Assembly (NCBI GenBank): GCA_017396365.1
Contig: JAFQMD010000026.1
Span: forward strand, 1-64,000
From: Clostridia bacterium
Lineage (GTDB): Bacteria > Bacillota > Clostridia > Christensenellales > Borkfalkiaceae
Reading direction: 5' to 3'
Length of the DNA: 64,000 nucleotides
Part shown: positions 28,400-60,483 of the stretch, in pieces
Numbering within the stretch: position 1 is the first letter of the stretch
How the letters are laid out: every line of letters begins with the position of its first letter
The notes under the pieces: generated by a model
What the model saw: only the letters and a program-made list of their open reading frames with translations
Told to the model about the DNA's origin: nothing
The model's database searches: none
Translations under genes and position numbers: made by a program

Positions 28400-28525
28400 A
28401 TGTTTAAGATGTTTTATTTAGAGCCGCTGGTAGAGATTATCAGCATGATGGATGACGTTATTAGGACGTCAACTGAAGACGACCCGTACAACGATTGGGA
28501 AGACCCAAACGTAAAGGGTAATTAA
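28400..28525 (+). CDS. Acidic micropeptide preceding a giant secreted protein (copy 1)
   Basis: 41 aa, preceded by the strong RBS AAGGAGG (28386-28392) and ending 13 nt before the 2212-aa gene, which has its own GGGAGG site. The N-terminus is MFKMFYLEPLVEII, then a central DDVIRTS, then a very acidic tail with DDPYNDWED. There is no signal peptide or membrane segment. It aligns in order and spacing with the 36-aa peptide at 54541 (YLxPxxEVI, DVI, S, DxDW), which sits in the same position before another giant. I know of no described function. The form (short conserved N-terminal block, conserved DVI, variable acidic end) recalls peptide precursors, but no modifying enzyme or protease gene is in the window. 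Confidence 0.75.
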   Translation: MFKMFYLEPLVEIISMMDDVIRTSTEDDPYNDWEDPNVKGN

Positions 28526-43228: not shown

Positions 43229-43263
43229 CGGCAATTTTGATTGAAATTTTGGGGTTTTACGAT

Positions 43264-44340
43264 ATGGAAAACGTTTACGATTTTCACGTTCATTATACCT
43301 TTGACGTGCCTTTAAAAGAAAAGGTTGAAATTTTTAAAGAAGAGTTTAAAGTAACTAAAACTGAAAAATATTGCTTTTTATCTCTTCCGCATCACGCCCA
43401 CGGCGACGAAGTTAAGTTTGACGCAACTCAAAACGTGGTGGGGTTGTTTTTAAAAAAGACCTTTTCGCCTAACGCGTACGCTTTTGCAGGACTTGAACAT
43501 CCTACTGCAATTTACGATAAGAAAAAGGTCGGGGAAGATTTTTTAAATCAAGCGAAAACTTATATGGCGGTTGGATTTGACGGAATAAAAATGCTTGAAG
43601 GTTATCCGTCTATCGTAAGAAACTGGAATTTAGGAGTTGACGACTGTGTTTACGATAGGTTTTACGCCTATATGGAAGAGAATGGTTTTCCTATCGTAAT
43701 GCATATTGCAAATCCTACTGAAAACTGGGATATTTCCAAAGCGAGCGCAAACGCGATAAAGGAAGGTAGAGTTTACGACGAGACTTATCCGACGAAAAAA
43801 GAGTTGATAGGTCAAGTGTTTAACGTTTTAAAAAAGTTTCCAAAATTAAAACTGACTCTTGCGCACTTTGGATTTTTAAGCGACGATATCAAAAGAGCCG
43901 AAGAATTTTTGTCTTATCAAAGCACTTCTTTTGACGTAACTCCCGGTGGAGAACAACTTATAAAAATGAGTAAAAACTGGGATTTGTGGCTAAATTTTTG
44001 GCAAAAGAATTTGGATAGAATTATTTACGGAACTGATTTTTACGCCTTTCCAAAAGACGAAAAGTGGCAAGAAAACTTTTTGAGAAGACCGTCGTTTATC
44101 CGTTGTTTTTTTGAAACGAATGAAATGCACTCGTACGTTGACGGCGATTTTAAAGGCGTTTTGCTCAGCCAAAAAATGAGAGAGAAAATTTATCGTGAAA
44201 ACTTTATAAAAATACTTGGAGAGCCTAAAAAAATATCAATTGAATTTTTAATTGACGTAGCGAGCGAATTATTGCGTTCAAATAATATAAAAAGCGATAT
44301 TTTAATAGCAGACTTAAAGTATATTTTAGAAAACCTATAA
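43264..44340 (+). CDS. Amidohydrolase-2 family metal-dependent hydrolase
   Basis: 358 aa from the ATG at 43264, preceded by GGGG; the in-frame TTG at 43237 lies upstream of that site and is rejected. The TIM barrel shows the metal-binding pattern of the family: HxH in YDFHVHY, a Lys in GIKMLEG, His in VMHIA and LAHFG, and Asp in YGTDF. Family members include sugar-lactonases and decarboxylases. Next to rhamnosidases, an L-rhamnono-lactonase-like or other sugar-acid step is possible but unproven. It is bounded by inverted copies 5 and 6 of the dispersed motif and may be transcribed with the upstream genes. Confidence 0.8.
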   Translation: MENVYDFHVHYTFDVPLKEKVEIFKEEFKVTKTEKYCFLSLPHHAHGDEVKFDATQNVVGLFLKKTFSPNAYAFAGLEHPTAIYDKKKVGEDFLNQAKTYMAVGFDGIKMLEGYPSIVRNWNLGVDDCVYDRFYAYMEENGFPIVMHIANPTENWDISKASANAIKEGRVYDETYPTKKELIGQVFNVLKKFPKLKLTLAHFGFLSDDIKRAEEFLSYQSTSFDVTPGGEQLIKMSKNWDLWLNFWQKNLDRIIYGTDFYAFPKDEKWQENFLRRPSFIRCFFETNEMHSYVDGDFKGVLLSQKMREKIYRENFIKILGEPKKISIEFLIDVASELLRSNNIKSDILIADLKYILENL

Positions 44341-44354
44341 AACAAAAAAAGACT

Positions 44355-44373
44355 AATAATCGACTTATAGATA
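44355..44373 (-). repeat. Dispersed intergenic motif, copy 6
   Basis: Minus strand reads TATCTATAAGTCGATTATT, 14 nt after the amidohydrolase stop codon and inverted relative to copy 5. Confidence 0.7.
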
Positions 44374-44396
44374 GGTTTTTACTTAAAATAATAGAT

Positions 44397-44434
44397 AAAA
44401 GCGCCTGCCTTTACGCATAAAGACGGACGCTTTT
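44397..44434 (+). terminator. Imperfect terminator after the amidohydrolase gene
   Basis: Outer arms AAAAGCG / CGCTTTTT with an inner CTTT/AAAG stem. Two mismatches lie between them, but a T-run follows, so termination is plausible. Confidence 0.6.
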
Positions 44435-44529
44435 TATATTCTATTTTTAAAATTTTACCGCTTTGGATAAATTTTTCAATTTGTAAAAAAAAACATACAA
44501 ACGCCCATAAAAAAGTAAAAATTTACAAC

Positions 44530-44558
44530 TTGCTTTTTATGAAAAAATGTGGTATTAT
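44530..44558 (+). promoter_or_regulatory. Promoter of the second AraC gene
   Basis: TTGCTT (44530-44535), 17-bp spacer, TATTAT (44553-44558). A perfect 12-bp palindrome CGCAAATTTGCG (44580-44591) lies about 22 bp downstream of the -10 box and could be a site of autoregulation. Confidence 0.65.
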
Positions 44559-44636
44559 AGTATTGCTAAGGAGTTAATACGCAAATTTGCGAAAACTACT
44601 GCGCAAAAATAACGTTACGGCGGATGGGGGCTCAAA

Positions 44637-45482
44637 GTGTTACATTATAAGGCTGACGAAGAATTTCAAAGCGACGCAATGGTCGCCATTAAAAAAATTG
44701 ACGACAATCGCGACGAGCAAATTCACAATCACGATTTTGTCGAAATAGTTTACGTAACGGAAGGCGAAGGAAAGCACAGCGTAAACGGCGAAGAGTTTAG
44801 CGTTAAAGCGGGCGACTTGTTATTTTTAAATTACGGTTGCACGCACGCGTTTACCGTAACCGATAAAATGATTGCCTACAACTTGATGGTAAGGGTAGAT
44901 TATTTTACCAAAAACATGATAAAAGACGACAATCTTTTTTACATGCTTGCTTTAACTTCATTTGAAAAGATACAACACGAATTAAACGATAAAAGTCCGC
45001 TCGTTTCCTTTGACTACAACGAGAGAGCGGATATAGTAAATTTGTTTAAAAATATCGAAGACGAACTTTCTAAAAACGAACTTGGCAAATCTTGGATTTT
45101 AGACTCGTATATAAACGTTATTTTATGTAAAGTTTTCCGTAAAATTTTCGTTAAAGACGACAATAAAGACAACCGTATTCCACAAGAAATTTTGGATTAT
45201 ATTAACCAGCATTTCAACGAGAAAATTTCGCTTAAAGAACTTTCGCAAAGATGTTTTTACAATCCTGCGTATTTTAGTAGGCTTTTTAAAAAGGCTTTTA
45301 ATATGGGTTTTACCGACTACGTTATGGACGTTAGATTAAGGCAATGTTGCGAATTGTTAAAAAGTAGCGATTATACCATAGAAAAGATAATTGAAGAGTG
45401 TGGTTTTTCGGATAGAAACACTTTTTACGAAAGGTTTAAAAACAAATACGGATGTACTCCGAGCGAGTATAGAAACAGGTGA
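44637..45482 (+). CDS. AraC-family transcriptional regulator of transport block 2
   Basis: 281 aa, GTG start after a GGGGG run. The N-terminal cupin domain is clear (HNHDFVEIVYVTEGEGKHSV, then VKAGDLLFLNYGCTHAF). The C-terminal AraC HTH domain holds ISLKELSQRCFYNPAYFSRL and IEECGFSDRNTFYERFKNK, ending CTPSEYRNR. It precedes the second transporter block and points the same way, separated by a terminator and a new promoter. By analogy with the first AraC gene it probably activates that block. The inducer is unknown. Confidence 0.9.
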   Translation: MLHYKADEEFQSDAMVAIKKIDDNRDEQIHNHDFVEIVYVTEGEGKHSVNGEEFSVKAGDLLFLNYGCTHAFTVTDKMIAYNLMVRVDYFTKNMIKDDNLFYMLALTSFEKIQHELNDKSPLVSFDYNERADIVNLFKNIEDELSKNELGKSWILDSYINVILCKVFRKIFVKDDNKDNRIPQEILDYINQHFNEKISLKELSQRCFYNPAYFSRLFKKAFNMGFTDYVMDVRLRQCCELLKSSDYTIEKIIEECGFSDRNTFYERFKNKYGCTPSEYRNR

Positions 45483-45552
45483 GGTGAGCGCGCTTACAAA
45501 ACGCGTTGACTAAGGTAATAATTTACTAAATAAATTTTAATAAAATTTAAAG

Positions 45553-45584
45553 ACTCGAAACTTTTTTAGGTTTCGGGTTTTTTT
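45553..45584 (+). terminator. Terminator of the second AraC gene
   Basis: Arms ACTCGAAAC (45553-45561) and GTTTCGGGT (45570-45578) pair with one wobble; a run of T follows to 45584. Confidence 0.85.
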
Positions 45585-45593
45585 ATGTCAAAA

Positions 45594-45670
45594 TACCATA
45601 CTAAAAAGTGGAGTTTAGTATAAATATCCTATTGATAAATTTTCTAAAAATATGGTATAATTTTACCATA
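45594..45670 (+). promoter_or_regulatory. Promoter and operators of transport block 2
   Basis: TTGATA (45632-45637) and TATAAT (45656-45661) with an 18-bp spacer. A perfect palindrome TATGGTA-N6-TACCATA (45651-45670) covers the -10 box. A third TACCATA half-site is at 45594-45600, and a second inverted repeat ATACTAAA-N8-TTTAGTAT is at 45598-45621. The layout suggests repression at the -10 box with a second site upstream. Confidence 0.7.
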
Positions 45671-45691
45671 AATATATCTTGGGAGGTTTTT

Positions 45692-47380
45692 ATGAAAAAA
45701 TTTCTTACAAAAATGCTTTGCTCATTACTACTCGTAGCGGTTGCTTTTTCGACTTTTGCTTGTAAAAAAGACCCTAATAAAAACAAGGCAACCCTTTACG
45801 TTTACAGTTTTACCAGTGGTTTTGGTTCTGAGTGGCTTACTGAACTTATCAGTGATTACGAGGCTTTGCACGCAAACGATAAGATAGGCGGAAAGACAGG
45901 TATTCACGTTCAACCTACTACGCTCAACTCAGACGTTGGCGGTGGAGAAATGAAAGGTAGAGATGAAGTCGTTTACTTTTTGGAGCAACAAGACTACTCA
46001 AGTTTGATTGACGGTGGATATATTGCAGACATAACGAGCGTGGTTACGGGCGCAAACCCGTACGATGCTGACGGCGTAACACTTGAAAGCAAGATGTTCG
46101 ACGAACAAAAGAATTACCTTGGAAGAAAGGACTCTGAAGGTAAAGTTCATTACTACGCATATCCGCACTATTTGACAAACTTCGGTATCGTTTACGACGT
46201 CGATAGATTTGACGAACAGGGCTATTATCTTATGAAAAATTATAACTTGGCAAACGGTCTTTCCAACTGTTTCTTAGGGAAAACGGGTAAAGCAGACGGA
46301 TTGCCAAAGACTGACGGACCTGACCAAACTCCGAACACGAGCGACGACGGACTTCCAACCACTTACGAAGAATTCTTTATGCTTTGCGACTACATTGCAA
46401 ACGTAGGTGGCGATAATCCGCTCGTTTGGAGTGGCGCGCACAGACATTCTTACTTGGCGCACTTTATCAACGCTCTTGCAACCGATTTTGAAGGAAAAGA
46501 GCAAATGCGCCTTAACTACACCTTTGACGGAACTGCTAAAAACCTCGGTAATGTTGTTGGCGGTAAATTCCAGTTTGATACAACCGATACGGTAATCGAC
46601 GGAACTAACGGCGCGGAACTTGCTCGTCAAGCAGGTAAATATTACGCAATTAAGTTCTACGACGATTTATATGCAAAACCGTATATCAAAAACGACGCTA
46701 ACGACCTTACTCTCTTCAGTTCAAATTACGACCATTTAACTGCTCAAGAAGATTTCTTAAAGAGAGGAGAAAATAGAAACGCTATGCTTTTAGACGGTTC
46801 TTGGTGGGAAATGGAAGCAACCGGCGTGTTTGACGATTTAGCAAGCGTAAGCGACGCTTATTCAAAAGAGAATAAAAATCTCGGATGGATGCCTCTTCCA
46901 AAGGTTACTTCAGACCAAGTAGGAAGTAAGCAAACGGTTTACGATATTTATTATCCTTTATGTATGATAAAGAGTATGCCGACTGACAGTTGGGAATATA
47001 AGTATGCCGTAGACTTCGTTCAATTTGCAAACAGCCAAGAACAACTTGCGCAATTTACTCAAATTACCAGCGCTGTAAAATCTCTTAAATACGATTTGTC
47101 GGGCGACCAACAAAAAGCGCTTACTCCATACGGTAAATCTTATTATAACTATATCAAAAAAGCGGAAATCGTTTTCCCATACGATAACAACGTTTTATTT
47201 AATAACAATCAATTAAAATTCCAGTCGTTATCAACAGACGGCAAGGTTAGTCCGCTTTATAATAGCGGAGATAGTAGAGGACTTATCGAGGCTATCGAAA
47301 AGGGCGTTTCTGCTGAAACCCATTTTGGTGGAATGTACACGTACTTCAATTCTCAAGATTATTGGAAAAGCGTTAAATAA
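45692..47380 (+). CDS. ABC transporter sugar-binding lipoprotein, block 2
   Basis: 562 aa from the ATG at 45692, 7 nt after GGGAGG. An in-frame GTG at 45608 would start upstream of the promoter and is rejected. The lipobox is STFACKKD. The large family-1 solute-binding fold is evident (ATLYVYSFTSGFGSEWLTEL, NAMLLDGSWWEME, PKTDGPDQTPNTSDDGLP, which may be a Ca-binding loop). It is paralogous to the binding protein at 14096, with matching C-terminal features (PYGKSYYNYIKKAEIVFPYD versus YFGKSLMQMKTSADIVYPYS). It is likely the specificity subunit of the second oligosaccharide importer. Confidence 0.9.
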   Translation: MKKFLTKMLCSLLLVAVAFSTFACKKDPNKNKATLYVYSFTSGFGSEWLTELISDYEALHANDKIGGKTGIHVQPTTLNSDVGGGEMKGRDEVVYFLEQQDYSSLIDGGYIADITSVVTGANPYDADGVTLESKMFDEQKNYLGRKDSEGKVHYYAYPHYLTNFGIVYDVDRFDEQGYYLMKNYNLANGLSNCFLGKTGKADGLPKTDGPDQTPNTSDDGLPTTYEEFFMLCDYIANVGGDNPLVWSGAHRHSYLAHFINALATDFEGKEQMRLNYTFDGTAKNLGNVVGGKFQFDTTDTVIDGTNGAELARQAGKYYAIKFYDDLYAKPYIKNDANDLTLFSSNYDHLTAQEDFLKRGENRNAMLLDGSWWEMEATGVFDDLASVSDAYSKENKNLGWMPLPKVTSDQVGSKQTVYDIYYPLCMIKSMPTDSWEYKYAVDFVQFANSQEQLAQFTQITSAVKSLKYDLSGDQQKALTPYGKSYYNYIKKAEIVFPYDNNVLFNNNQLKFQSLSTDGKVSPLYNSGDSRGLIEAIEKGVSAETHFGGMYTYFNSQDYWKSVK

Positions 47381-47400
47381 ATTTAAAAATTAAGGAACTT

Positions 47401-48315
47401 ATGACTAATATTAGCGGTGTAAAGTTAAATAAAAAAGCACAGACCATGGATAAGGGCGCAAAGATTTTTTACGCCATTTTGATGGCTTTGCCCGTTTTAC
47501 AGTTTGTGCTTTTCTACATTGTTGTGAATTTTCAATCTTTCGGCTTTGCCTTTATGGATACGGTAGAAACGACGGATAATAAAATCGTTTGGTTTTTCTC
47601 TTTAAAAAACATTACTGATTGGTTTACCGACCCGTATAAAGTAAAAGATTTATTAAATGCAACGAAAATGTCTCTTTTGTATTATGGAGTAACTCTTTGC
47701 GTAAGTATTCCGCTCGGGCTACTTTTTGCTTACTACGTATTCAAAAAGATGCCGTTTGCAGGAATGTTTAGGATATTTTTATTTATTCCTTCGATAATTC
47801 CTGCTGCTGCGTTTGTTTTAACGTTTAAATACGTATTAAACGAAGTTACGCCTATACTTTTCGGCTCAAACGCGTTGAGATTTGATACTCATCCGCTTTT
47901 TTGGATTATCTTTTACAATTTATACGTCGGCTTTGGTACGTCCGTGCTAATGTACGCAAACAAGATGTTTGATATTTCTCCCGAAGTAATCGAAGCGGGC
48001 AAACTCGACGGCGCTATCGGAATAAAAGAGTTTTGGCATATAGTTTTGCCACTTACTTTCCCAACTCTTTCGGTATTTTTGGTTACTGGTGTTGCTACGA
48101 TTTTCGTAAATCAATATAACGTGTTGATGTTTAACGTCAGCGCGGAATTCGATTCGCTTGGGAAATATCTCTACGACTTGGCGTTTGAAGCCACTAAATC
48201 TGAAAGAAACGTTCCACCTGCGGCGGGACTCGGTTTAATACTAACCGTAATTGCAATTCCGCTTACTTTCGGCGTGAAATACTTGTTGGACAAATATGGT
48301 CCGTCTGAAGACTAA
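47401..48315 (+). CDS. ABC sugar transporter permease (LplB/MalF type), block 2
   Basis: 304 aa with six membrane segments (FYAILMALPVLQFVLFYIVV first, LGLILTVIAIPLTFGV last). The EAA loop reads IEAGKLDGAIGIKEFWHIVLP. AAGGAA precedes the ATG. It lies 20 nt after the binding-protein gene without the hairpin seen in block 1. Confidence 0.92.
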   Translation: MTNISGVKLNKKAQTMDKGAKIFYAILMALPVLQFVLFYIVVNFQSFGFAFMDTVETTDNKIVWFFSLKNITDWFTDPYKVKDLLNATKMSLLYYGVTLCVSIPLGLLFAYYVFKKMPFAGMFRIFLFIPSIIPAAAFVLTFKYVLNEVTPILFGSNALRFDTHPLFWIIFYNLYVGFGTSVLMYANKMFDISPEVIEAGKLDGAIGIKEFWHIVLPLTFPTLSVFLVTGVATIFVNQYNVLMFNVSAEFDSLGKYLYDLAFEATKSERNVPPAAGLGLILTVIAIPLTFGVKYLLDKYGPSED

Positions 48316-48325
48316 GGGGGTAGGT

Positions 48326-49237
48326 ATGACTAAAAATCAAAATACGGTTAAAATAAAAAATAAACTTTCACCCCTTACGATAACGTTACTTACCGTACTC
48401 GTGGTTTACGTTGTCTTTATGCTCGCGCTCTTTTTGTGGGCGTTAGTTACCGCGAGTAAAAAATATTCGGGCGATTATTCTTCTATCGATCCGACTGTTC
48501 CAAACAATATAATTGGACTTCCTAAGGAATTTTACTTCTTTAAAAACGTGTCCAAACTCAACCAAGGCTTTGCGGATTTTACGCTTATCGAAATGGCAAT
48601 CAACACCATTTTGTATTCCTTTGGCTGTTCGTTTTTAAAAGTAGTTGTTACATGCCTTGTGGCATACCTTTGCGCAAGATACGAAAACTGGTTTTCAAAA
48701 ATCGTCTATACTACGGTAATCGTAACTATGATAATACCGGTAGTAGGAAATCAGGCGGCGGAAATTCAACTTGCTGAAACACTCGGACTTCGCAATCAAA
48801 TTTGGGGTATGTGGATTATGAGAGCAAATTTCCTTGGGATGTACTTTCTCGTTTTCTATTCGGTGTTTAAAACCATGCCGAAAGGCTATTACGAAGCGGC
48901 TAAAATCGACGGCGCAAACGATATGCAAGTCATGATAAAAGTCGCGCTCCCACTCATTAAATATACCTTTTTATCAATATTCTTGATTCTATTTATCGAA
49001 TATTGGAACGACTATCTTATTCCAAACTTATATCTTCCTAAATATAAGACGTTGTCTCTTGCTCTTTATCATCAGTCAACGGGGCAAGAATTAAACGCTC
49101 AGTTTAAAAGGGAAATGAGCAGAGTTCCCGCTTTAATGGCGTCGGTAATAGTAATTACCGTACCCGTAATCGTACTTTTCTGCATTTTCAGTAAAAGGCT
49201 TATGGGCAATTTGTCCGTCGGCGATTTAAAAGGATAA
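48326..49237 (+). CDS. ABC sugar transporter permease (MalG type), block 2
   Basis: 303 aa from the ATG at 48326, after AAGGGGG and 10 nt behind the upstream stop. The in-frame ATG at 48296 lies inside the upstream gene and before the RBS. The EAA loop is YEAAKIDGANDMQVMIKVALP, followed by EYWNDYLIPNLYLP. It is the paralogue of 16782-17714. Confidence 0.9.
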   Translation: MTKNQNTVKIKNKLSPLTITLLTVLVVYVVFMLALFLWALVTASKKYSGDYSSIDPTVPNNIIGLPKEFYFFKNVSKLNQGFADFTLIEMAINTILYSFGCSFLKVVVTCLVAYLCARYENWFSKIVYTTVIVTMIIPVVGNQAAEIQLAETLGLRNQIWGMWIMRANFLGMYFLVFYSVFKTMPKGYYEAAKIDGANDMQVMIKVALPLIKYTFLSIFLILFIEYWNDYLIPNLYLPKYKTLSLALYHQSTGQELNAQFKREMSRVPALMASVIVITVPVIVLFCIFSKRLMGNLSVGDLKG

Positions 49238-49318
49238 GATTCAATTTAGCAAAAACTCGCTTTTAGCGATTTAATTAAAAATTTAGGCTATGCAAACCAT
49301 AGTTCAAGGAGAAATTAA

Positions 49319-52300
49319 ATGACAAATTTAAAGAGAAAAAGCAAATATATTTTTGTTTTTATTCTTTTAATATGCGTTAGTATTCCTTTGATTTTCGTAG
49401 GGACGAAAGGGCTTGTAAACGCTGAGCCAAGCGTAAGCGTATCAAAAGAAATAAGTCAAGGTTACGCTTTTGGCGACGAGTTTACAGTTCCCGATTGTAC
49501 GTTCACGGTAGGGGGAGAGAGTAAAAAGGGCGAACACTCTTTGCGCTTTCCAGACGGAAGGTACGAAACTGAGAACGTTACGACCTTAAATCAAAGCGGA
49601 AATTACCTTTTAAAATACGTTGCTACGATAGGTAAAAAAGTTTACACCAAAGAATACGCTTTTAAAGTAGGTAGCAAGTTGGCGACTTATAACAACGAAA
49701 AGACGACTATAAGTTACGGCAAGACTACTCATTTAGGGGCAAATTCTACGGGACTTAACGTAAAAATTGCAAACGGAGATTCTATTACTTTCGGGCACGT
49801 TTTCGATATGACCGAACTTACTTCGGCTACTAAAATCATAGAAGGGTTCGTAGTTCCCGAAGTTCAAAGAAAAGCCGATTTTGCAAGAATGGTATTTACG
49901 TTTACCGACGTAAACGACCCGTCGGTGCAGTTGGTGTATTACGGCAATTTCCACGACGACGTAAATTCTTACGGATTGACGTTTTTTACCGCCGCCGGTA
50001 ACGGTCAAGTTCAAACGGGGCTTGAGTACGCGGGTAAATTGCACTCGGGTTCAACTCTTGGATGTTTAGTTCCGCACAGTTTTATGGCGGTTGATACGGG
50101 ACTATATTACGGCGCTTATTCGCACACGTCAAATCCGGTAGTAGATTGCGCTCCCGACGCTAAACTTTTCTGCATAAGTTACGATTATCAAAGAAATCAA
50201 GCGTGGGCAGGCGGAAAAATCATTTCCGACCTTGACGATAATAATTATTACAGCACTTTATGGTTTGGGTTCCCAAGTGGGAAGGCAAAACTTACCGTAA
50301 GCGCGCTTAACTATAACGGAACACATGCAAATATGTGTTTTACGAGTATTTTAGGTATCGACTTGTCGGCTGAAAGTTTCGTTGATGAAAACGCGCCTGA
50401 AATAACTGTAAATACCGAATATGAAGAAATGCCAACGGCAATCGTCGGCGGAACTTATCCCGTACCTACGGCGAGCGCGCTCGACGAAGAAAACGGAGAA
50501 TGCAAGGTAGGCGTTTCGGTTTGGTATGAATACGCAAATGAAAATAAAAAGTCTATAGATATCAAAAACGGTAGATTTAAAGTTGAAAAAGTTGGAACTT
50601 ACGCGATAGTTTACGAATCTGTTGACCATAGCGGAAACGTCGCTCGCAAGATTTTATGGATAAGAGCAACCCTTTCCCAAAACGTTGAAAAACTAAGCGT
50701 AGAGATTGAGTCGGGTTATTCGACCGAAATAGAAGTAGGAACTGTTCAAAATATTCCAAACGTAACGGTATCTGGCGGTAGCGGAAAAGTTACCACGGCG
50801 TTTACCCTTGCAAACGGAAATGAAAAATTCACGGTAGAAAACGGCGAGTTTATATTAGAAAAAGCAGGCGAGTGGACGCTTACTTGTACGGCAAGCGACT
50901 ACGTTGGAAGTGTTGCGGTTTCAACCCTTAAGTTGACTGCAGTGACTAAAAATAGACCTGTTATAGTAAGCGAGCCTAATTTGCCTATCGCATACGTTTC
51001 GGGCGGAACGTACCGTCTGCCACAACTTAGCGCATACGATTATACTTCGGGCGAAAAGGTTGAAAAAGTTTGTTCGGTAGAAGTTTCGTACGGCTCGGCA
51101 AGTCCTACCACCGTAAAATCGGGCGAAGAATTTACTCCTACCGTAACCGAGAGCGGTGATAAGGTAAAACTCAATTACGTTTGCGACGGTGTTTCGCTTT
51201 ATCAACGTGAAATCCCAGTAATAATCGTTTTCGATAGGGAAGAAATAGGCGATACGGGTAATTTTAGACAAGTAGTCGCTACCGATAAGTATTTCTTTAC
51301 CGAAAATAACGTTTCGATAGTAAATAGAGAGAATTTAGGCGGAAATCAAGGTATTAAATTTACTACAAACGAAGAAATAGAAAGCGCTAAAGTTTCGTTT
51401 ATTAACGCTCAACTTGCAAATTCTTTCTCTCTCAGTTTCTTTACCATTCCAAACGAATCTAAGTTTGACGGCGTTGCAATAACTATTACCGACAGTTTAG
51501 ATAAGGACGTCTCGATAAAAGTTCTTCTTTTAAAAGACGACGGACAAACCAAGTTGGTAGTCGGCGATACTCAAATTGCTTTGCTCTTTGATTTCGACGG
51601 CTCGTTTAGCGCAAGTTACAGCGTTGGCTTTAATAATGGTAAAGTCGTAGTAAATTCTGCTACTTCAATTACAGTTACTAAAACTCAAAGTGGAAATGCG
51701 TTTGACGGTTTCCCAAGCGGAAAGGTTTACTTTGATATTGAAATGATAAACGCTGAAAGTGGCGCGTCGCTATTTTTAAATGAAATTTCTAGAGTTAAAG
51801 TAGCAAACAATCAAGACAACACCGCGCCTTACGTTACAACTTACGATACCGTTAGCACAAGCGCGCTTAAAGATAGCGTTTACGTTGTTCAAAAAGTAGT
51901 TGCGTGCGACGTTTTGTGTCCTAACGTTCAAAGTTTCTTGACGGTTAAACGTCCCGACGGAACGATTGCAAAGAGCAAGGACGGAATAGAACTTAAAAAC
52001 GTTGACGCAAGCGTTGATTACGAAATAGTTATGGACGCTTACGGTAAATATAGCGTAACCGTTGAAACCACCGAATTAAACTGGAGATATTCAAACGTTT
52101 CGTATTTTGAATACGCAGTTGAAGTAGTTGACGGCGATGCTCCGATTATAGAATTTAAAGGCAAGTTTAAGGATACGTTAAGGGTTGGAAATACGCTTAC
52201 TATTCCTAAATTTGAAGTTACGGACGGACACTCTGCGCAAGATAAGATAGCCGTAATGATAGTTATAACTAATCCAAAAGGCATGCCGATTTATTTGTAC

Positions 52301-52414
52301 GATAACGAAAGGTCAATCGTTTGCGAATATAAAGGCGAGTATAAAATTTGCATTTACGCGTACGACGAGGCGGGTAATCTTGCCGTGTTTGAAACGACGG
52401 TAACCGTCAAGTAG
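49319..52414 (+). CDS. Large secreted Ig-like/beta-sandwich protein coupled to transporter 2
   Basis: 1031 aa, RBS AAGGAG. The signal peptide includes YIFVFILLICVSIPLIFVG. The layout parallels the 1029-aa protein at 17714: an initial sandwich, a LamG-like region with KADFARMVFTFTDVNDPS (KADF is also in the paralogue), then Ig-like domains (DENAPEITV, GTYAIVYESVDHSGNVARK), a second LamG-like region and two closing Ig-like domains (DNTAPYVTTYD, GDAPIIEF). No catalytic motif is visible. The steady linkage of this size class to the two permeases and a DUF4838 gene in both blocks suggests a surface glycan-capture subunit of the import system. Confidence 0.7.
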   Translation: MTNLKRKSKYIFVFILLICVSIPLIFVGTKGLVNAEPSVSVSKEISQGYAFGDEFTVPDCTFTVGGESKKGEHSLRFPDGRYETENVTTLNQSGNYLLKYVATIGKKVYTKEYAFKVGSKLATYNNEKTTISYGKTTHLGANSTGLNVKIANGDSITFGHVFDMTELTSATKIIEGFVVPEVQRKADFARMVFTFTDVNDPSVQLVYYGNFHDDVNSYGLTFFTAAGNGQVQTGLEYAGKLHSGSTLGCLVPHSFMAVDTGLYYGAYSHTSNPVVDCAPDAKLFCISYDYQRNQAWAGGKIISDLDDNNYYSTLWFGFPSGKAKLTVSALNYNGTHANMCFTSILGIDLSAESFVDENAPEITVNTEYEEMPTAIVGGTYPVPTASALDEENGECKVGVSVWYEYANENKKSIDIKNGRFKVEKVGTYAIVYESVDHSGNVARKILWIRATLSQNVEKLSVEIESGYSTEIEVGTVQNIPNVTVSGGSGKVTTAFTLANGNEKFTVENGEFILEKAGEWTLTCTASDYVGSVAVSTLKLTAVTKNRPVIVSEPNLPIAYVSGGTYRLPQLSAYDYTSGEKVEKVCSVEVSYGSASPTTVKSGEEFTPTVTESGDKVKLNYVCDGVSLYQREIPVIIVFDREEIGDTGNFRQVVATDKYFFTENNVSIVNRENLGGNQGIKFTTNEEIESAKVSFINAQLANSFSLSFFTIPNESKFDGVAITITDSLDKDVSIKVLLLKDDGQTKLVVGDTQIALLFDFDGSFSASYSVGFNNGKVVVNSATSITVTKTQSGNAFDGFPSGKVYFDIEMINAESGASLFLNEISRVKVANNQDNTAPYVTTYDTVSTSALKDSVYVVQKVVACDVLCPNVQSFLTVKRPDGTIAKSKDGIELKNVDASVDYEIVMDAYGKYSVTVETTELNWRYSNVSYFEYAVEVVDGDAPIIEFKGKFKDTLRVGNTLTIPKFEVTDGHSAQDKIAVMIVITNPKGMPIYLYDNERSIVCEYKGEYKICIYAYDEAGNLAVFETTVTVK

Positions 52415-52422
52415 AGGTGAAT

Positions 52423-54519
52423 ATGAAATTGACTAAGAAAAAACTTTTAATATTGATTTCTATTTGCGTTAGCGTAGCGCTCGTTTTATCTGGCGTTTTA
52501 ACTTGGGTTTTGATAGCAAATGGAGATAAGAGCGACAAGGTAAACGATTATAAAATACACCAAATCGAAGGAACTATTCATAAGGTAAACGTACAAGAGA
52601 GCGACGTTCCGTTTATAAAAAACGACGCTACTAATTATAAAATTTACCTTGACCAAAGCGACGAAAAACTTAAAACGCAAATCGTTAAATCTGCAAATTT
52701 CGTCGTCGAACAAATTTTAAAGGCAACGGGTGTTGAAATTTCGACGGAAGAAAAACTTCCAACCACTTTAAGCGATAAAGACTACGCTATAATTTACGGA
52801 AACAGAGATTTCTTTACTTCGGTAGGGTTGACAATGCCAACCGACGATATCTCGACGGTGGGATATTATATAAAGAGCAAGGGAAATCTCGTGTTTATCG
52901 AGGCAAACGGTGGCGATGGTTACAGAATGGGCGGATTAGCGTTTTTAAGAGAAGTAATCGGCTACGATATGATTTCGGAAGACTGTGTTATTTACGGTAG
53001 AAACCCCGAAACGATGCCTACTATGGATATAGTAGAACGCCCTGACTTTGATTATAGACAAATTTCAAACTATTACACGAGCGTTGAAATTTACGGTATG
53101 GGTATGCACTCGCATACGGATATTTGGATACCCGTAAACGGATGGGATATGCATAACACCTTGTATTATATTGACCCCGATATTTATTATGCGGAACACC
53201 CTGAATGGTATAGAGCGGATAAACAGCAAGTTTGTTATACTGCTCACGGCGTTAAGGAAGAATACGACGCAATGCTACTTGCAGTTTTTGAAGTTGTAAA
53301 AAAGCGTATGGAAGAACTTCCAGAAATAGAAAATATGTCTTTCTCTGCGATGGACGGAACGGGTATAGACTCTTGTTATTGTGAGAATTGTACTATTTAC
53401 CACTCTTTATACGGAACGCCTGCATCTACTTGTATTTACTTTATGAATGATTTAAACGCTTTAGTTCAATCGTATATAAAGCAGAGCAGTAATCCCGATA
53501 GAGTAATGAACTTAGTATTCTTCGCTTATCACGATGCAGAGCCTGCGCCTGTTGAAAGACAAAAATATACGGATGCAAACGGAAAGGAAACTTGGACTGA
53601 CCCCATTGCAAATTCTAACGGCGAATACCAACCGCTAAGGCGTTATAAAATGGACGCTCAAACGAGACAATTTGTAAAAGACGGTAGCGGGAACTACGTG
53701 TATGAAACCGACGCAAAAGGAAACCCAGTTTATTTAACTTGCGACGAGCACGTATATCCGTGGCTTGCTCCTATATATTCAAAATTTACTAAATCTTTTT
53801 ATGAAGAAGAAAACGCTTCTTACGCAAACAACGTGTCTTCTTGGCAAGCGGTGGCAAGTAACGTTTACGTTTGGATTTACGGCACGAACTTTAAGTATTA
53901 TTTGTATCCATATAACACTTGGAGTCCCGTTGTAGAAACCTATCGTTTTTTGAAAGAACGCGGTGTAAAATACGTTTGGAACCAAGCGCAAGAAAGAAAT
54001 ATGTCAACGGCATTTACCGATTTAAAAGACTATATCGACTCTAAGTTTTTGTTTGACGTAAACGCCGATTACGGTAAGGTTATAGATACTTATTTTGACA
54101 ACTATTATAAAGAGGCGTCAGAGCCTATGCGCAAGATGTTTGAACTTATTCAAGCGCAAAGCGCGTATTTAGAAAAGACAATACCTACGATTTCGGGCGG
54201 TATTTACGACGATATAGGTAGCCCTGAGTTTTGGCCGAGATTGCTTTTAGAACAACTTAATTCTTATATTGAACAATCGTATAAAGCAGTTGAAAAATAT
54301 AAGGTAACAGATCCAAAACTTTACAACGATTTGATAAAGAGAATTAAAAAGGAAAGTATTTTTCCTCGTTACGTAATTTGTACGTATTATGAAGATTCTT
54401 ATCCTAACATTTACGAACTTAGAAAAGCATTTAAAAACGATTGGGTAGAATTAGGTTTTTCAGTTTATAAAGAAACGGACGGCGATATGCAGTCAGTATT
54501 CACATCTTGGGGAGTATAG
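52423..54519 (+). CDS. DUF4838-family membrane-anchored protein, block 2
   Basis: 698 aa from the ATG at 52423 (GAGGTGA just upstream; the GTG at 52417 is part of that site). The N-terminal hydrophobic segment LLILISICVSVALVLSGVLT serves as signal or anchor. A GH67N-like accessory domain follows (SANFVVEQILKATGVEIS, YAIIYGNRDFF, VFIEANGGDGYRMGGLAFL), then the DUF4838 region with DMHNTLYYIDPDIYYAEHPE, the paired-Cys CYCENC and NVYVWIYGTNFKYYLYPYN. It aligns along its length with the C-terminal 600 residues of the giant at 54664. Carbohydrate-active function is likely; reaction unknown. Confidence 0.8.
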   Translation: MKLTKKKLLILISICVSVALVLSGVLTWVLIANGDKSDKVNDYKIHQIEGTIHKVNVQESDVPFIKNDATNYKIYLDQSDEKLKTQIVKSANFVVEQILKATGVEISTEEKLPTTLSDKDYAIIYGNRDFFTSVGLTMPTDDISTVGYYIKSKGNLVFIEANGGDGYRMGGLAFLREVIGYDMISEDCVIYGRNPETMPTMDIVERPDFDYRQISNYYTSVEIYGMGMHSHTDIWIPVNGWDMHNTLYYIDPDIYYAEHPEWYRADKQQVCYTAHGVKEEYDAMLLAVFEVVKKRMEELPEIENMSFSAMDGTGIDSCYCENCTIYHSLYGTPASTCIYFMNDLNALVQSYIKQSSNPDRVMNLVFFAYHDAEPAPVERQKYTDANGKETWTDPIANSNGEYQPLRRYKMDAQTRQFVKDGSGNYVYETDAKGNPVYLTCDEHVYPWLAPIYSKFTKSFYEEENASYANNVSSWQAVASNVYVWIYGTNFKYYLYPYNTWSPVVETYRFLKERGVKYVWNQAQERNMSTAFTDLKDYIDSKFLFDVNADYGKVIDTYFDNYYKEASEPMRKMFELIQAQSAYLEKTIPTISGGIYDDIGSPEFWPRLLLEQLNSYIEQSYKAVEKYKVTDPKLYNDLIKRIKKESIFPRYVICTYYEDSYPNIYELRKAFKNDWVELGFSVYKETDGDMQSVFTSWGV

Positions 54520-54540
54520 GAGAAGGTAAGGAGAAAATTT

Positions 54541-54651
54541 ATGAAAAATTATTTGAAACCGATTATGGAAGTAATCAACTTGCAAACTGAATGCGACGTC
54601 ATAACGATGTCGGTTGGCGACAACGATTATGACGACAAAGACTGGGAATAA
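54541..54651 (+). CDS. Acidic micropeptide preceding a giant secreted protein (copy 2)
   Basis: 36 aa. AAGGAG lies 9 nt upstream; the stop codon is 12 nt before the giant gene. The N-terminus is MKNYLKPIMEVINLQ, followed by CDVITMS and an acidic tail DYDDKDWE. It shares the order KxxYLxP..E(V/I)I, DVI, S and a D-rich end with a Trp with the 41-aa peptide at 28400. It has one Cys, unlike copy 1. No signal peptide is present. Function unknown; the conserved position before a secreted giant suggests a functional link (peptide precursor, translational leader, or partner). Confidence 0.75.
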   Translation: MKNYLKPIMEVINLQTECDVITMSVGDNDYDDKDWE

Positions 54652-54663
54652 GAAGGTGATAAA

Positions 54664-57600
54664 ATGAAAAGAAGTATTGTTAAAAACACGTTAATTTGGA
54701 TTTTATCGGCATTTTTATTCATTTCCGTTTTAGGCTTTACGTATTTTAGCGCAAACGGTGGCATAAAAGTTTTTGCAACGTCTTCAATTCCTACGGGAAC
54801 TTTTGAAATAGAAAACGGTACGTCGCTTAAACTCGGTAATAAAAACGGACTTAGATTTATCGTTAAGATGGACGAAGAAATGAGGAACTTCGTTAGAAAT
54901 AACGATGACGTTTCTATGGGCTTTTTTATAGCGCCAAAGTCTGTAATATTGCAATACGAGGGTAAGTATTGCGAGAATAATTCCAAGTTTGTCGGCGGGG
55001 ATATCAACGAAAATAAGATTTATCAACCTGAAGGCGAAACGCAATATTATTACACCAACGGATGTATAGTAAACGTTAAACCTACAAATTTTGAAAAAGA
55101 TTTCGTTGCTGTTGCTTACGTAAAATATGGCGAGGAGGAAGTTCGTTATACCACTTACAACGATTCGGCTCACGGAAACTTATACGAAGTTGTAAACTAC
55201 TGGATGTTAAACGGCTACGCTAACGAAATAATTGAAAGCAAAACTGAATATGGCGAAAGCGTTTACGTAAAAACTGAAAACAACGGCGGTTGGTACGGCT
55301 CAGAACAATTCCCTATCATAGTTGAAACAACCGAGCAGTATGCAAATTTAGTTGGATTAGCAGACACGGAAAACGAAAACGATTACCTTGACGTTAGCGA
55401 TTTTACGGTTATTGTAAAAGATAGCGTAAATATGTCGGGTTCGTTTGCTGAAACTAATAAGCCAACAATTATAAACGAAAGCCTTTTTAACGTTAATAAA
55501 CTTATATCGTTGCTTCCAGAGTCTGTTACTATGCCTGATGCAATCACTCACGTTGCAAGAATTAAAGACGCTGAAAAGGCTTACAACGCATTAACTGACG
55601 AGTTAAAAGCGCAAGTTGTAGGCGTTGAAAAACTTGCAAGTTTAGTTGATTCAGTCGAGGGTTACGATAGAATTTATAAACACGACGCTGACGACGGAAA
55701 CGTAATAGCAAGCCAAGTGCCAAGCGGATATTCTTCTACTATAGGTGGCACAGCAACCACTCGTCAAGATAATCAACACGGCAACGTTTTAACTGTAAAA
55801 TCTGATACTGACGGCAAGGCTGCATTACTTTTTGAAAATTTCCCTGATTTAAGTAATTACGGTAAAGTTTATTTTTACGTACGCGCAATCGGAGCATCTT
55901 GTGACCTTTATCTTTCCGACGGTACGGAAAACGAGGGTTGGGGAAAAAATTGGAAAAACACTTGGAGTTTGTCTGGACTTTGGTTAAACGACGGTAATTG
56001 GGGACTTATGTCTTTTGATTTGTCAGAATCTTTTAATGACGCAAACGGAAATCCTATTGCGGTAAGAGATATTTTTAGTGGAGACTCGTTAATGATAGGT
56101 CTTCGCACAAACGTAGCAGGCGTTACCTTAGAAATCTCTGACATTTATGCAACTGAGTATATTGGCGATAGAACAGGACTTACCTTTGGTACGTTTGCCG
56201 ATTCGGGAGAAACAAACGAATATGGTACTGTTTACAATTTAACTCAAGGTTGGAGTAGTGAAAAGGATTTAGGTGTAATCAATCAAGGCGTTATGAGAAG
56301 TTCTTTAAAAACAGGACATAATGCGTTACGCTTCTATATGTATAATCCAAACGAGTCGGACGTAACTTTCTACCTTTCTGAAAATACAACTTGGGCGATA
56401 ACTGACGTTACAACCTTAAAGGCAAAGGCGTGGACGGAAGTGGAAATTTCTCGTGAAATGATAATATCTAACGATAATTATTTAACTTATCTTTGCGTAT
56501 CATCAGGAGCAAACACGAGCGGATGGCAAATTTCACCTATTTATTCGTGTTATATTCCAGAGAGCAAGAGGGAGGTAGAAAGTTTCTTTGGTGTTTGCAC
56601 AGATACAGGAACAACAAACGGAAATGGAAAAGTTTACAATATTGCCCAAGAATCGTATTATGTATCTGCGAATATCACTAACGGTTTAGGAACACTCACA
56701 ACGGGCGAGCTTGCAAACGCATTGCCATCGGGTTACGAATTCTTCTATTTCTGGATGTATAACCCGACAGACATGACTTATAATTTCCACTTAGCAGGTG
56801 ACGTAAGCGGAACTTGGACTAATACGCCTACTTCAACTAAGAGTTTAACGCCAAATGCTTGGACTAAGGTTGGTATATCTGCTGAGGATATAGAACTCAA
56901 TAAGAGCGGTCAATGGCACGTATATATTACTGGTGGCGATGGAGCAGGAGCTACTAAATCTGGCTGGCAAATTTCACCTATTTATGCAGGTCCTGACATA
57001 GTAGAAGAAGTTGATGAAGGTTATCTCGACCATGCGGACGTTAAAGAAACAATTAAACTTATAAATGCAATTCCTGAAAACGTTACGTTAGACGATGTAT
57101 TGGCGATTGAAACTGCAGAAAATGCGTATAATACTCTTGCCGATAGCCAAAAGTCGCAAGTTACAAATTATAGCAAGTTGACTTCGGCAAAGAATACTAT
57201 TACAAATATTGAAAAGGCAAATAGCGTTATTAAACTTATCGGCGTTTTAGACGTAAAAGCAGTTGACGAAGACTCTGTTACAAGGGCAAGAGAAGCTTAC
57301 AACGCTCTTACTGACGAACAAAAAGCGCTCGTTACAAACTACGATATTTTAGAAGAATGTGAAAACGTTCTCTCTGCCGATAGCGAAAGACAGGCAAGAA
57401 TTAACAACGTTATTACATTGATTAAAAATCTTCCAGATTCCGTTGTAATGCCTGACAACCTTGTATTTGTTACGAGAATTGAAAACGCAAATAACGCGTA
57501 TAACGCTCTTTCAAATGACGAACAACAAGAAGTTACAAATTACGCTAAACTTCGTACTTTAGTAAACGCTATAAAAGGTTACGAAACTATTCACGTTCAG

Positions 57601-60483
57601 TCAGTTGATAGCGTAAACGTTATTCCGTCATATCTTCCTGGTGGATATTCTTCTACAACAGGCGGAACTGCAAGTATGGGTTATGACGGTTACTATGGAG
57701 ATTATTTACAAGTTACTTCAACTGCAGGTGGAAATGCTGCAATTCAGTATATTAACTTCCCAGACGTAAGCGCTTACGAAAAACTCTACTTTAATATAAG
57801 AATAGTAGGCGATTCAGGTCACGTGTACGTTTCCGACGGAACGAGCAATGGCGGTTGGGGAGACTATTACAACAATAACTGGTATGCAGATGGATATTAT
57901 GCAAATGACGGCAACTGGATTCAAAAAGAATTTGATTTGACAAGTAATTTTAAAGATTCAAATGGTAATTATACAGTTTCCGTATTGAAAACGTTTGCGT
58001 CAAATTGGGCTCTCGGTATTAGAGGAGAAAAAAAAGCAACTGGAATTTCGTTTGCGATTACAAATATAATCGGTTATAAACCTGACCTTGGAGAGCAAAC
58101 GGAGCTTACCTTTGGTAATTTTACCGATTCCGGCGAGACTAATACGAACGGAACTGTTTATAACTTAACTCGTGGTTGGGAGAAAAATGAAGAAAAAGAA
58201 AACACAACCGACTTTGGTGCGTTTAATATTGGAATAATGCGTTCTGGATTAAGTGAAAATCATGATTCGTTACGTTTCTTCATTTATAACCCAAACAGTT
58301 CTGACTTACAGTTTTACGTTACGGAAAATGAAACGTGGGTAAGAACTGACGTTACAACGCTAACTGCTAATAAGTGGACGGAAGTAGTTCTTTCATCGGA
58401 TATCATAAATTCTAACGACAACTATTTAACGTACATTTGTGTAGAATCGGGGGCGCAAACGAGCGGATGGCAAATTTCACCTATTTACTCGTTCTCTACG
58501 GGAGACGCAATAGATAAAGTTCAAGCCCGTATCAACGCGCTAAATACTCAAACGCCTAACGATTATCAAGTGGAGTTGGCTCGTACGGCATTTGAAGCGC
58601 TTACAGAAAATCAAAAGGCGTTAATTGACGTAACCAACTTAAAAACTTGTGAAGAAGCCCTTTACGGCTCGACGACAGAGTTTACCTTTATAGAAAACGG
58701 CGCAACGAAATATAAAATTTATTACGAATCTACGGCTTCATCGGCAGTTAATTTCTTAGTAGAGCAAATTGAAAATGCAACGGGTGTAACGCTTGATACG
58801 TTTATGGTCGAACCGCAAAATCTTTCTAACTATCGCCATGCAATAGTCGTAGGATGGCAAGGTAGATATGAAGACTGTTTGGAAATTTCTTACGACACAA
58901 CTCGTCGAGCAGGATATGCAGTTAAATCTAACGGTAGAACTGTGTTTATCCAAGCGCACAGCGCGGACGGATACCGTTTGGCAATTATCAAGTTCTTAAA
59001 CGAAGTTTTAGGCTACGATATGCTTTCGGACGATTGCGTAGTTTATTCAAAAGACGGCTCTACCGTAAACGGAAGATTTAGTATCACCGGCGCTCCGTTT
59101 GACTATCGTCAAAAGCAAACTTATATGACCGAAAGCGAAGTTTACGGTATGGGCTTACAGACAAGCGCAGATATTTGGGTGCCAGGTCCTGTTGTTAAAA
59201 ATGCAGAAGGTAAAAATATTCAAATGGATATGCATAACACGACGCATTATCTTCCTACCGCAACCTATCAATCGGCTCATCCGTCTTGGTATTTCACGTT
59301 TACGGACTCGTATGGCGAATCAAGGACTGATATTTGTCCTACCGCAGGTGGAAACGCAACTGAATTTAACGCAATGGTTGACGCCTTAGCAAGCGGAATG
59401 CTCGCTCAAATCAATAGTGACGTAGAACAGAGTGAAAATATTTGTCTTTCTATTATGGATAGTGGAGATCCTGAAAGTGCAAATCCTTGTAAGTGTTCTC
59501 GTTGTCAGTTGTATGCAAGCGTTTACGGCAACGCAGGCTTTAGCGCGGCGTGGATAGAACTTATGAACGCCGTTAACGCTAAAGTAAGAGAAAGTCTTCC
59601 ACAAGGCAAAGTTGTAAATATTGCTTTCCTTGCTTACCGTTTGACGATAAACGCGCCTGTAAACGACGATTTAACGCTTATGAAACGTTACGACTTTAGT
59701 TCGGGTAGCGCAGTTGAAACTGGCGAATACCTTAAGTGTGACGAAGGTGTAACCGCTTGGGTAGCGCCGATTAGCGCGTTGTACGCTGAAAACTTTAATT
59801 TTGCAGACAATGCAGACGAATTGTTAAATATCAAAAAATGGCTTAAACTTTCCGATAGCGTTTATATTTGGCTCTACGGTACAAACTTTAAATATTATAT
59901 GTATCCTTATAATTCGTGGAAAGCGTCTGCCGAAAACTATAAGATTTTATACGATTTAGGCGTTAAGGCGGTTTGGAGTCAAAGTAACGAAACTGAAGCG
60001 ACTGCATTTAGCGATTTAAAGGGCTATATCGACTCTAAGTTTATGATTGACGTAAATGCGGATTACAAAACCGTATTAGATAGTTACTTTACAAATTACT
60101 TTGGAGTAGCAGGCGAAACAATGCGCGCAATGTTCGATGCAATCGTTGCAAACTGCGATTCAATCGAAGAAAATAATAGCGGTTTAGGTCGTGGTATTTA
60201 CGACGAACTTGAAAAAACGACTGGAAGTTGGATCTTTGAAAAAACCACGTCTTGTTGGACTAAAAGCGTATTGCAAGAGTTGGTAGATTTTTGTAACGCG
60301 GCAAAAGATCTCGTAAACGCCGACACTTCGCTTAGTGACGAGCAAAAGACTGCAATCTTAAATAGAATTACTAAGGAAAGTCTTTTCCCAAGATACGTTC
60401 TTAAAGACGTTTATAGTGTTGCTGACGATACTTTGCAGTCAGATTGTGAAAGACTTGGCGTTACTGAGACGAAGGAAACTTAA
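54664..60483 (+). CDS. Giant secreted protein with GLRF module and C-terminal DUF4838 domain
   Basis: 1939 aa, RBS AAGGTGAT. Signal peptide 1-38 (LIWILSAFLFISVLGFTYF...). Layout: 'GLRF' module (about 40-190, NGLRFIVKMDEEMR, VAVAYVKYGEE), a helical linker, a ~165-residue sandwich (GYSSTIGGTATT), two ~140-residue sandwich units (FADSGETNEYGTVYNLT, GVCTDTGTTNGNGKVYN), three helical linkers with FIVAR-like LTDEQKALVTNY repeats, a second copy of each sandwich type (GYSSTTGGTASM; FTDSGETNTNGTVYNLT), a further linker, then DUF4838 from about residue 1335 (DMHNTTHYLP, CKCSRC, SVYIWLYGTNFKYYMYPYN). The last part is a close relative of the protein encoded just upstream at 52423. No wall anchor is seen. 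A surface polysaccharide-binding and processing role is inferred. Confidence 0.85.
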   Translation: MKRSIVKNTLIWILSAFLFISVLGFTYFSANGGIKVFATSSIPTGTFEIENGTSLKLGNKNGLRFIVKMDEEMRNFVRNNDDVSMGFFIAPKSVILQYEGKYCENNSKFVGGDINENKIYQPEGETQYYYTNGCIVNVKPTNFEKDFVAVAYVKYGEEEVRYTTYNDSAHGNLYEVVNYWMLNGYANEIIESKTEYGESVYVKTENNGGWYGSEQFPIIVETTEQYANLVGLADTENENDYLDVSDFTVIVKDSVNMSGSFAETNKPTIINESLFNVNKLISLLPESVTMPDAITHVARIKDAEKAYNALTDELKAQVVGVEKLASLVDSVEGYDRIYKHDADDGNVIASQVPSGYSSTIGGTATTRQDNQHGNVLTVKSDTDGKAALLFENFPDLSNYGKVYFYVRAIGASCDLYLSDGTENEGWGKNWKNTWSLSGLWLNDGNWGLMSFDLSESFNDANGNPIAVRDIFSGDSLMIGLRTNVAGVTLEISDIYATEYIGDRTGLTFGTFADSGETNEYGTVYNLTQGWSSEKDLGVINQGVMRSSLKTGHNALRFYMYNPNESDVTFYLSENTTWAITDVTTLKAKAWTEVEISREMIISNDNYLTYLCVSSGANTSGWQISPIYSCYIPESKREVESFFGVCTDTGTTNGNGKVYNIAQESYYVSANITNGLGTLTTGELANALPSGYEFFYFWMYNPTDMTYNFHLAGDVSGTWTNTPTSTKSLTPNAWTKVGISAEDIELNKSGQWHVYITGGDGAGATKSGWQISPIYAGPDIVEEVDEGYLDHADVKETIKLINAIPENVTLDDVLAIETAENAYNTLADSQKSQVTNYSKLTSAKNTITNIEKANSVIKLIGVLDVKAVDEDSVTRAREAYNALTDEQKALVTNYDILEECENVLSADSERQARINNVITLIKNLPDSVVMPDNLVFVTRIENANNAYNALSNDEQQEVTNYAKLRTLVNAIKGYETIHVQSVDSVNVIPSYLPGGYSSTTGGTASMGYDGYYGDYLQVTSTAGGNAAIQYINFPDVSAYEKLYFNIRIVGDSGHVYVSDGTSNGGWGDYYNNNWYADGYYANDGNWIQKEFDLTSNFKDSNGNYTVSVLKTFASNWALGIRGEKKATGISFAITNIIGYKPDLGEQTELTFGNFTDSGETNTNGTVYNLTRGWEKNEEKENTTDFGAFNIGIMRSGLSENHDSLRFFIYNPNSSDLQFYVTENETWVRTDVTTLTANKWTEVVLSSDIINSNDNYLTYICVESGAQTSGWQISPIYSFSTGDAIDKVQARINALNTQTPNDYQVELARTAFEALTENQKALIDVTNLKTCEEALYGSTTEFTFIENGATKYKIYYESTASSAVNFLVEQIENATGVTLDTFMVEPQNLSNYRHAIVVGWQGRYEDCLEISYDTTRRAGYAVKSNGRTVFIQAHSADGYRLAIIKFLNEVLGYDMLSDDCVVYSKDGSTVNGRFSITGAPFDYRQKQTYMTESEVYGMGLQTSADIWVPGPVVKNAEGKNIQMDMHNTTHYLPTATYQSAHPSWYFTFTDSYGESRTDICPTAGGNATEFNAMVDALASGMLAQINSDVEQSENICLSIMDSGDPESANPCKCSRCQLYASVYGNAGFSAAWIELMNAVNAKVRESLPQGKVVNIAFLAYRLTINAPVNDDLTLMKRYDFSSGSAVETGEYLKCDEGVTAWVAPISALYAENFNFADNADELLNIKKWLKLSDSVYIWLYGTNFKYYMYPYNSWKASAENYKILYDLGVKAVWSQSNETEATAFSDLKGYIDSKFMIDVNADYKTVLDSYFTNYFGVAGETMRAMFDAIVANCDSIEENNSGLGRGIYDELEKTTGSWIFEKTTSCWTKSVLQELVDFCNAAKDLVNADTSLSDEQKTAILNRITKESLFPRYVLKDVYSVADDTLQSDCERLGVTETKET

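Follow-up and report, generated by a model that had tools for sequence, protein, structure and literature searches.

What is the role of a 36-codon open reading frame that stands immediately ahead of a gene for a giant secreted protein? The question arises from a window of 64,000 nt (the whole stretch of DNA analysed here), in which the frame runs from an ATG at 54541 to a stop that ends at 54651 and, read directly, is translated as MKNYLKPIMEVINLQTECDVITMSVGDNDYDDKDWE; this frame, the other genes placed below by coordinates in the window and the GLRF modules of the giants lie on the forward strand. An AAGGAG Shine-Dalgarno sequence precedes it (54529-54534), and 12 nt separate its stop from the ATG of a 1939-residue frame (54664-60483) whose product has a signal peptide, a GLRF module and a C-terminal DUF4838 domain. 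This arrangement had been described in a sequence-only reading of the window, and its coordinates were confirmed. On the other side, a 700-residue DUF4838 protein (52417-54519) ends 21 nt upstream of the peptide gene. A 41-residue peptide, MFKMFYLEPLVEIISMMDDVIRTSTEDDPYNDWEDPNVKGN (28400-28525), lies 13 nt ahead of the frame for another secreted protein, of 2212 residues (28539-35177). The region from 43237 to 60483 resembles a glycan-use locus, with an amidohydrolase-like protein, an AraC-type regulator, a sugar-type ABC transporter (a binding protein and two permeases), two DUF4838 proteins and a 1031-residue secreted protein.

The sequence-only reading had taken the two peptides to be related. 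Pairwise, in a search of one genome, their similarity is not significant (E 0.18). An alignment of four copies recovered eleven family members in the same genome and many in its relatives, and an alignment of 35 peptides gave 14 matches in the genome that carries the window, 13 of them with E ≤ 2.5e-8. The weakest copy (C13:110769), checked by hand, reads MTYVSPVIEIIVVDNENIIRTSPEVGDLWPWL and lies 28 nt ahead of a 553-residue signal-peptide protein with a GIRF motif. The kinship of the 36- and 41-residue peptides is borne out at the level of this family, where it is far beyond chance; the supposed second micropeptide is indeed a member, but one of 14 copies rather than the second of two. Scans of Pfam and NCBIfam found no family that covers the two window peptides and left the precursors of 36-41 residues unmatched, and a search of the PDB with the peptide alignment gave no match.

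The 35 aligned peptides have the consensus KKxYxxPxxEVIxxxxxDVIxTS, after which comes an acidic tail that varies. The tyrosine is invariant, and a serine follows it in every peptide at a distance of +18 (15 peptides), +19 (17) or +20 (3), with threonine directly before that serine in 23 of the 35. Every tail holds 3 to 6 excess acidic residues plus Trp or Phe. In eight orthologous pairs the pooled pS was 0.564 and the pooled pN 0.139, so these peptides are under strong purifying selection, and the 36-residue peptide is therefore the product of a translated, constrained gene. A chance open reading frame was accordingly rejected on selection and family size. Since pN is below pS in head and tail alike, the tail is locus-specific and kept at its locus; tails diverge far more among paralogues than among orthologues. 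The divergent tail seen at first thus holds between paralogues, but not between orthologues, where the tail is constrained. The cysteine that had been remarked on in the 36-residue copy is present and is also retained in both orthologues, as CDVI in L048 and CDTL in L079, and is a feature of the sub-family to which this peptide belongs. The order of the 700-residue DUF4838 gene and the peptide gene is likewise kept at these two loci (genomes G003 and G001).

Family members do not lie at random genomic places. All 14 precursors in the genome of the window are within about 30 nt of a secreted-protein gene. The 13 strong copies share the strand of a signal-peptide protein at -14 to +19 nt, eight on its 5' and five on its 3' side, and the partner exceeds 1000 residues in 11 of the 13; such proteins account for 3 of 69 background genes, counted in a few stretches only. 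The signal-peptide test was crude and lenient, and 29 of the 69 background genes pass it. When related genomes were included, a script found a same-strand partner within -29 to +53 nt for 42 of 44 copies, many of which are orthologous and hence not independent; for a few partners of 3' copies the start is truncated or a signal went unrecognised. Two copies were left unpaired by the script: one (L067) proved by hand to stand 2 nt before a 1711-residue protein that the signal filter had missed, and the other (L054) adjoins an RRE gene of the kind discussed below. With the two genes directly next to each other, co-production of a peptide and its partner is probable. Near-identical peptides, MKKYEEPELEIVSFEVEDxTNFG..., were observed in a different family of the order (G268 and G191; loci L161, L162 and L165), where they closely follow, on the 3' side, surface-type proteins of very large size and lie near an apparent site-specific recombinase.

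A short frame so placed could be a regulatory upstream frame or a translational-coupling leader for the giant, as the gap of 4-13 nt in many copies and the presence of a Shine-Dalgarno sequence might suggest. The position of the copies speaks against this: 29 of the script-paired copies lie 5' of the partner, but 13 lie 3' of it, and on these the regulatory reading was rejected. The amino-acid level selection in head and tail and the conservation of the head across unrelated partners and families also count against it, and we regard it as extremely improbable. The link to GLRF giants proposed at the outset is upheld as adjacency, though about one third of the copies follow their partner instead of preceding it.

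The GLRF module itself spans about 165 positions (GAxVR...GLRFxxEM...RSIYxVA) and is common to the giant secreted proteins; it occupies 54778-55215 in the gene of the 1939-residue protein and 30000-30503 in that of the 2212-residue protein (profile A7), and in these two giants it falls under no Pfam or NCBIfam family. A G[LIV]RF motif occurs in 12 of 13 partners in the genome of the window. Profile A7 found 11 places there, every one a peptide partner; as the profile was built from 11 partners, the informative part of this result is that it turned up no further gene. Beyond this genome the tie is looser and the module is not obligatory. GLRF genes in G260 are closely preceded by peptides that were newly recognised (L187, L188), but no peptide was detectable beside five GLRF genes of G019 (L178-L180), none was found with those of G117 and G212, where no RRE was detected, and some peptides pair with secreted proteins that have no GLRF module. 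G019 does have an RRE and a kinase.

A candidate set of proteins that would act on such peptides was found in two places. PF05402 has exactly one match in the genome of the window (G000), an 88-residue protein on contig C3 (L099:8844-9107, minus strand; E 1.2e-14) that is a stand-alone PqqD-type RRE, a component of the linear polyphosphorylated peptide (LPP) RiPPs described in 2026 from the lpp cluster of Paenibacillus alginolyticus (PMC13381572). Its gene is close to genes resembling gidA and dnaA. The predicted model (pLDDT 93.6) is similar to TbiB1 in complex with a lasso leader (Z 12.1, rmsd 2.4, 83 residues aligned) and to TfuB1 (Z 11.2); its closest structures in the PDB are lasso B1 proteins, and the RRE profile also matches LppB (9x8z, 8e-7). 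Asn33, Asp70 and Phe74 of LppB hold the leader (PMC13381572); with the LppB numbering positioned by means of the residues named in that paper, they align with N35, D72 and F76 of the C3 protein. The near relatives of this RRE come from four uncultured Clostridia, including samples from roe deer caecum and sheep colon.

Contig C9 encodes, in a row, a 237-residue kinase, a 149-residue S24/S26 protease and an MsbA-like ABC exporter. The kinase model (pLDDT 92.7) matches HprK/P and PEPCK (1jb1: Z 11.9, rmsd 2.9, 123 residues aligned), and the protein is predicted to be an HprK-like kinase of HprK/PEPCK fold, of the kind found in LPP systems. In the peptidase Ser26, His65 and Asp80 are invariant; its match to TIGR02228 (E 2.8e-10) scores 40.3 bits, under the cut-off of 51.85, and it also matches SipW (1.9e-5). 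The exporter (L131:9359-11002), directly after the peptidase, is MsbA-like, again as in LPP; its best family is TIGR02203 (E 3e-73, below the cut-off of that family). An NTP_transf_5 protein (PF14907) gave no match in this genome, which is 91% complete, and is present in many relatives. The machinery is thus split between two distant loci, on C3 and C9, and the precursors are scattered. Kinase, protease and exporter genes are likewise grouped in five further genomes of the genus (L132-L136), and kinase and protease in L141; at seven loci (L106, L107, L108, L110, L111, L114 and L116) the RRE gene lies between kinase and protease, and L108, L111 and L116, which come from genomes of the same genus label, have the genes for kinase, RRE and peptidase side by side.

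These components raise the question of a lasso peptide. Its precursor would combine a YxxP leader with a Thr ahead of the core and be read by the RRE, a lasso cyclase and a B2 protease of transglutaminase-like type. The family does carry a Y-x-x-P leader, threonine precedes the conserved serine in most members, and the RRE has the structural neighbours just named; moreover, paeninodin-like lasso peptides share a discrete RRE, an HprK-like kinase, an NTP transferase and a [Y/W]xxP leader. Against this, Transglut_core3 (the B2 protease, PF13471) has no match in the genome of the window, and what relatives yield are for the most part weak matches in long frames; the linked protease is of S24/S26 type instead; and no asparagine-synthetase-like macrolactam cyclase (the PF00733 kind) was recognised in the RRE and kinase loci examined. 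We consider a lasso precursor very improbable.

The peptides and these enzymes occur together. Among 297 genomes of the order, a stand-alone RRE, defined by a match to PF05402 with E no worse than about 3e-8, is present in 18 of 20 peptide-positive genomes and in 12 of 277 others (Fisher 5e-19); the threshold excludes weaker hits that lie in frames some 450-520 residues long. Counted by genus, the level at which alone the counts allow for phylogeny, the figures are 12 of 14 against 8 of 103 (1.3e-9). The two peptide-positive genomes without an RRE are G041, whose peptide match is interrupted by a stop and probably spurious, and G034, which has real-looking, convincing peptides. The kinase was found in 27 genomes, 17 of the 20 peptide-positive ones among them.

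Physical linkage points the same way. At nine loci in eight genomes, L054 and L160 included, a peptide lies less than 2 kb from a stand-alone RRE. In L157 and L158 the peptide, MEKYEALEMEV(I/V)RFEAEDVIC..., heads a cluster that continues with kinase, RRE, protease, ABC exporter and a further protein, which in L157 is an NTP_transf_5 protein. A precursor inside an enzyme cluster, which is missing from the genome of the window, is thus found for the same peptide family, and these clusters tie the family directly to the machinery. Together with the co-occurrence they support the leader and core architecture, one of two options that the sequence-only reading had offered. In L156 (G102:C35) two family peptides lie beside an RRE-like protein and an apparent C39-type peptidase-exporter; here the same head may feed another export route. 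In L169 (G120:C31) two peptides were seen with a 475-residue protein and an RRE, the latter within 0.3 kb of the nearer peptide.

These results also bear on a rival reading, akin to the other option, a partner with a fixed docking end: the peptide would undergo no RiPP chemistry and, unmodified, dock on the giant or help in its secretion, with the RRE link accidental or reflecting a chaperone role. It would account for the one-to-one pairing with secreted genes and for the coincidence of GLRF genes and peptides in the genome of the window. It does not readily account for the co-occurrence with RRE and kinase or for peptides inside full clusters, nor for GLRF genes without peptides and peptides with partners that lack the module. 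We judge it improbable.

The trans-acting machinery points to the identity of the peptide, which is quite likely a RiPP precursor of LPP type, processed by the split machinery, with one precursor for each secreted partner. Its head resembles the Tyr-based, RRE-bound leader motif of LPP, which reads YxxPxVLxHQxIxFETxxS, with the tyrosine at -16 and a phosphorylated serine at +3, a spacing of +18 (PMC13381572). Against this reading stand the proline at Y+3, which is present in only 20 of 35 peptides, the different leader end, the RRE not detected in G034, the NTP_transf_5 protein without a match in the genome of the window and the sub-threshold TIGR02228 score of the peptidase. From the alignment and the LPP spacing, residues 1-21 of the window peptide (54541-54603, with Tyr4, Pro7 and CDVI) are the predicted leader, TMSVGDNDYDDKDWE (54604-54648) is the predicted core, and Ser24 (54610-54612) is the predicted modification site. 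The N-terminal leader (Y-x-x-P/I/V-x-x-E-V-I) would dock on the stand-alone RRE from C3; the HprK-like kinase would phosphorylate the conserved serine of the xTS motif; the S24/S26 (SpI-like) protease would cut the leader near DVI|xTS, judging by the LPP spacing; and the MsbA-like transporter would export the short, very acidic core with its aromatic residues. A single enzyme set, common to all the family peptides of this genome, probably tags, trims and exports them, and this suggests that every secreted partner is produced along with a modified peptide of its own.

Our guess is that, once exported, the peptide works on or with the giant outside the cell, in its attachment or activation or by signalling that the giant is in production. 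More specifically, and as a doubtful proposal, the phosphorylated peptide might be a dedicated partner of the adjacent secreted protein, binding or joined to it, perhaps through the GLRF module, and setting its location or activity. If this is true, giant surface proteins are served as a whole set by a single RiPP machinery. No role is known for LPP and paeninodin peptides (PMC13381572), and a precursor beside each large secreted protein, some of them with the glycan-related DUF4838, offers a testable hint at the function of LPP-like peptides. Since the precursors are scattered and the enzymes split, cluster-based genome mining would probably miss such a system.

Within the literature covered, the search for such a system led to the LPP work alone (PMC13381572). 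The kinase and RRE also match the SynChlorMet cassette (ScmC and ScmD; TIGR04249 and TIGR04248), weakly (E about 1e-3) and far below the family cut-offs. The LPP core set consists of LppK, LppB, LppS and LppD, with LppN as the NTP_transf_5 protein (PMC13381572). Shared with it are the stand-alone PqqD-type RRE, the HprK-like kinase, a putative SpI-like peptidase, the MsbA-like exporter and, in relatives, NTP_transf_5, as well as the Tyr-based RRE motif and a Tyr-Ser distance of +18 to +20 here against +18. In contrast, the leader ends in xxxEDVI rather than HQxIxFET, so the full motif is absent; at least 14 precursors are scattered in one genome, whereas LPP clusters hold 1-3; each precursor is paired with a secreted, mostly giant protein; the machinery occupies two loci; and the hosts are uncultured ruminant-gut Clostridia. 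Because the NTP transferase, the full leader motif and an in-cluster precursor are lacking here, we set the system apart as a variant of LPP rather than a member. In the prochlorosins, the precursors are not known to be paired one by one with secreted-protein genes. They differ further in their lanthipeptide chemistry, carried out by ProcM, but they likewise have many precursors per shared enzyme and are the nearest precedent (PMC10783134).
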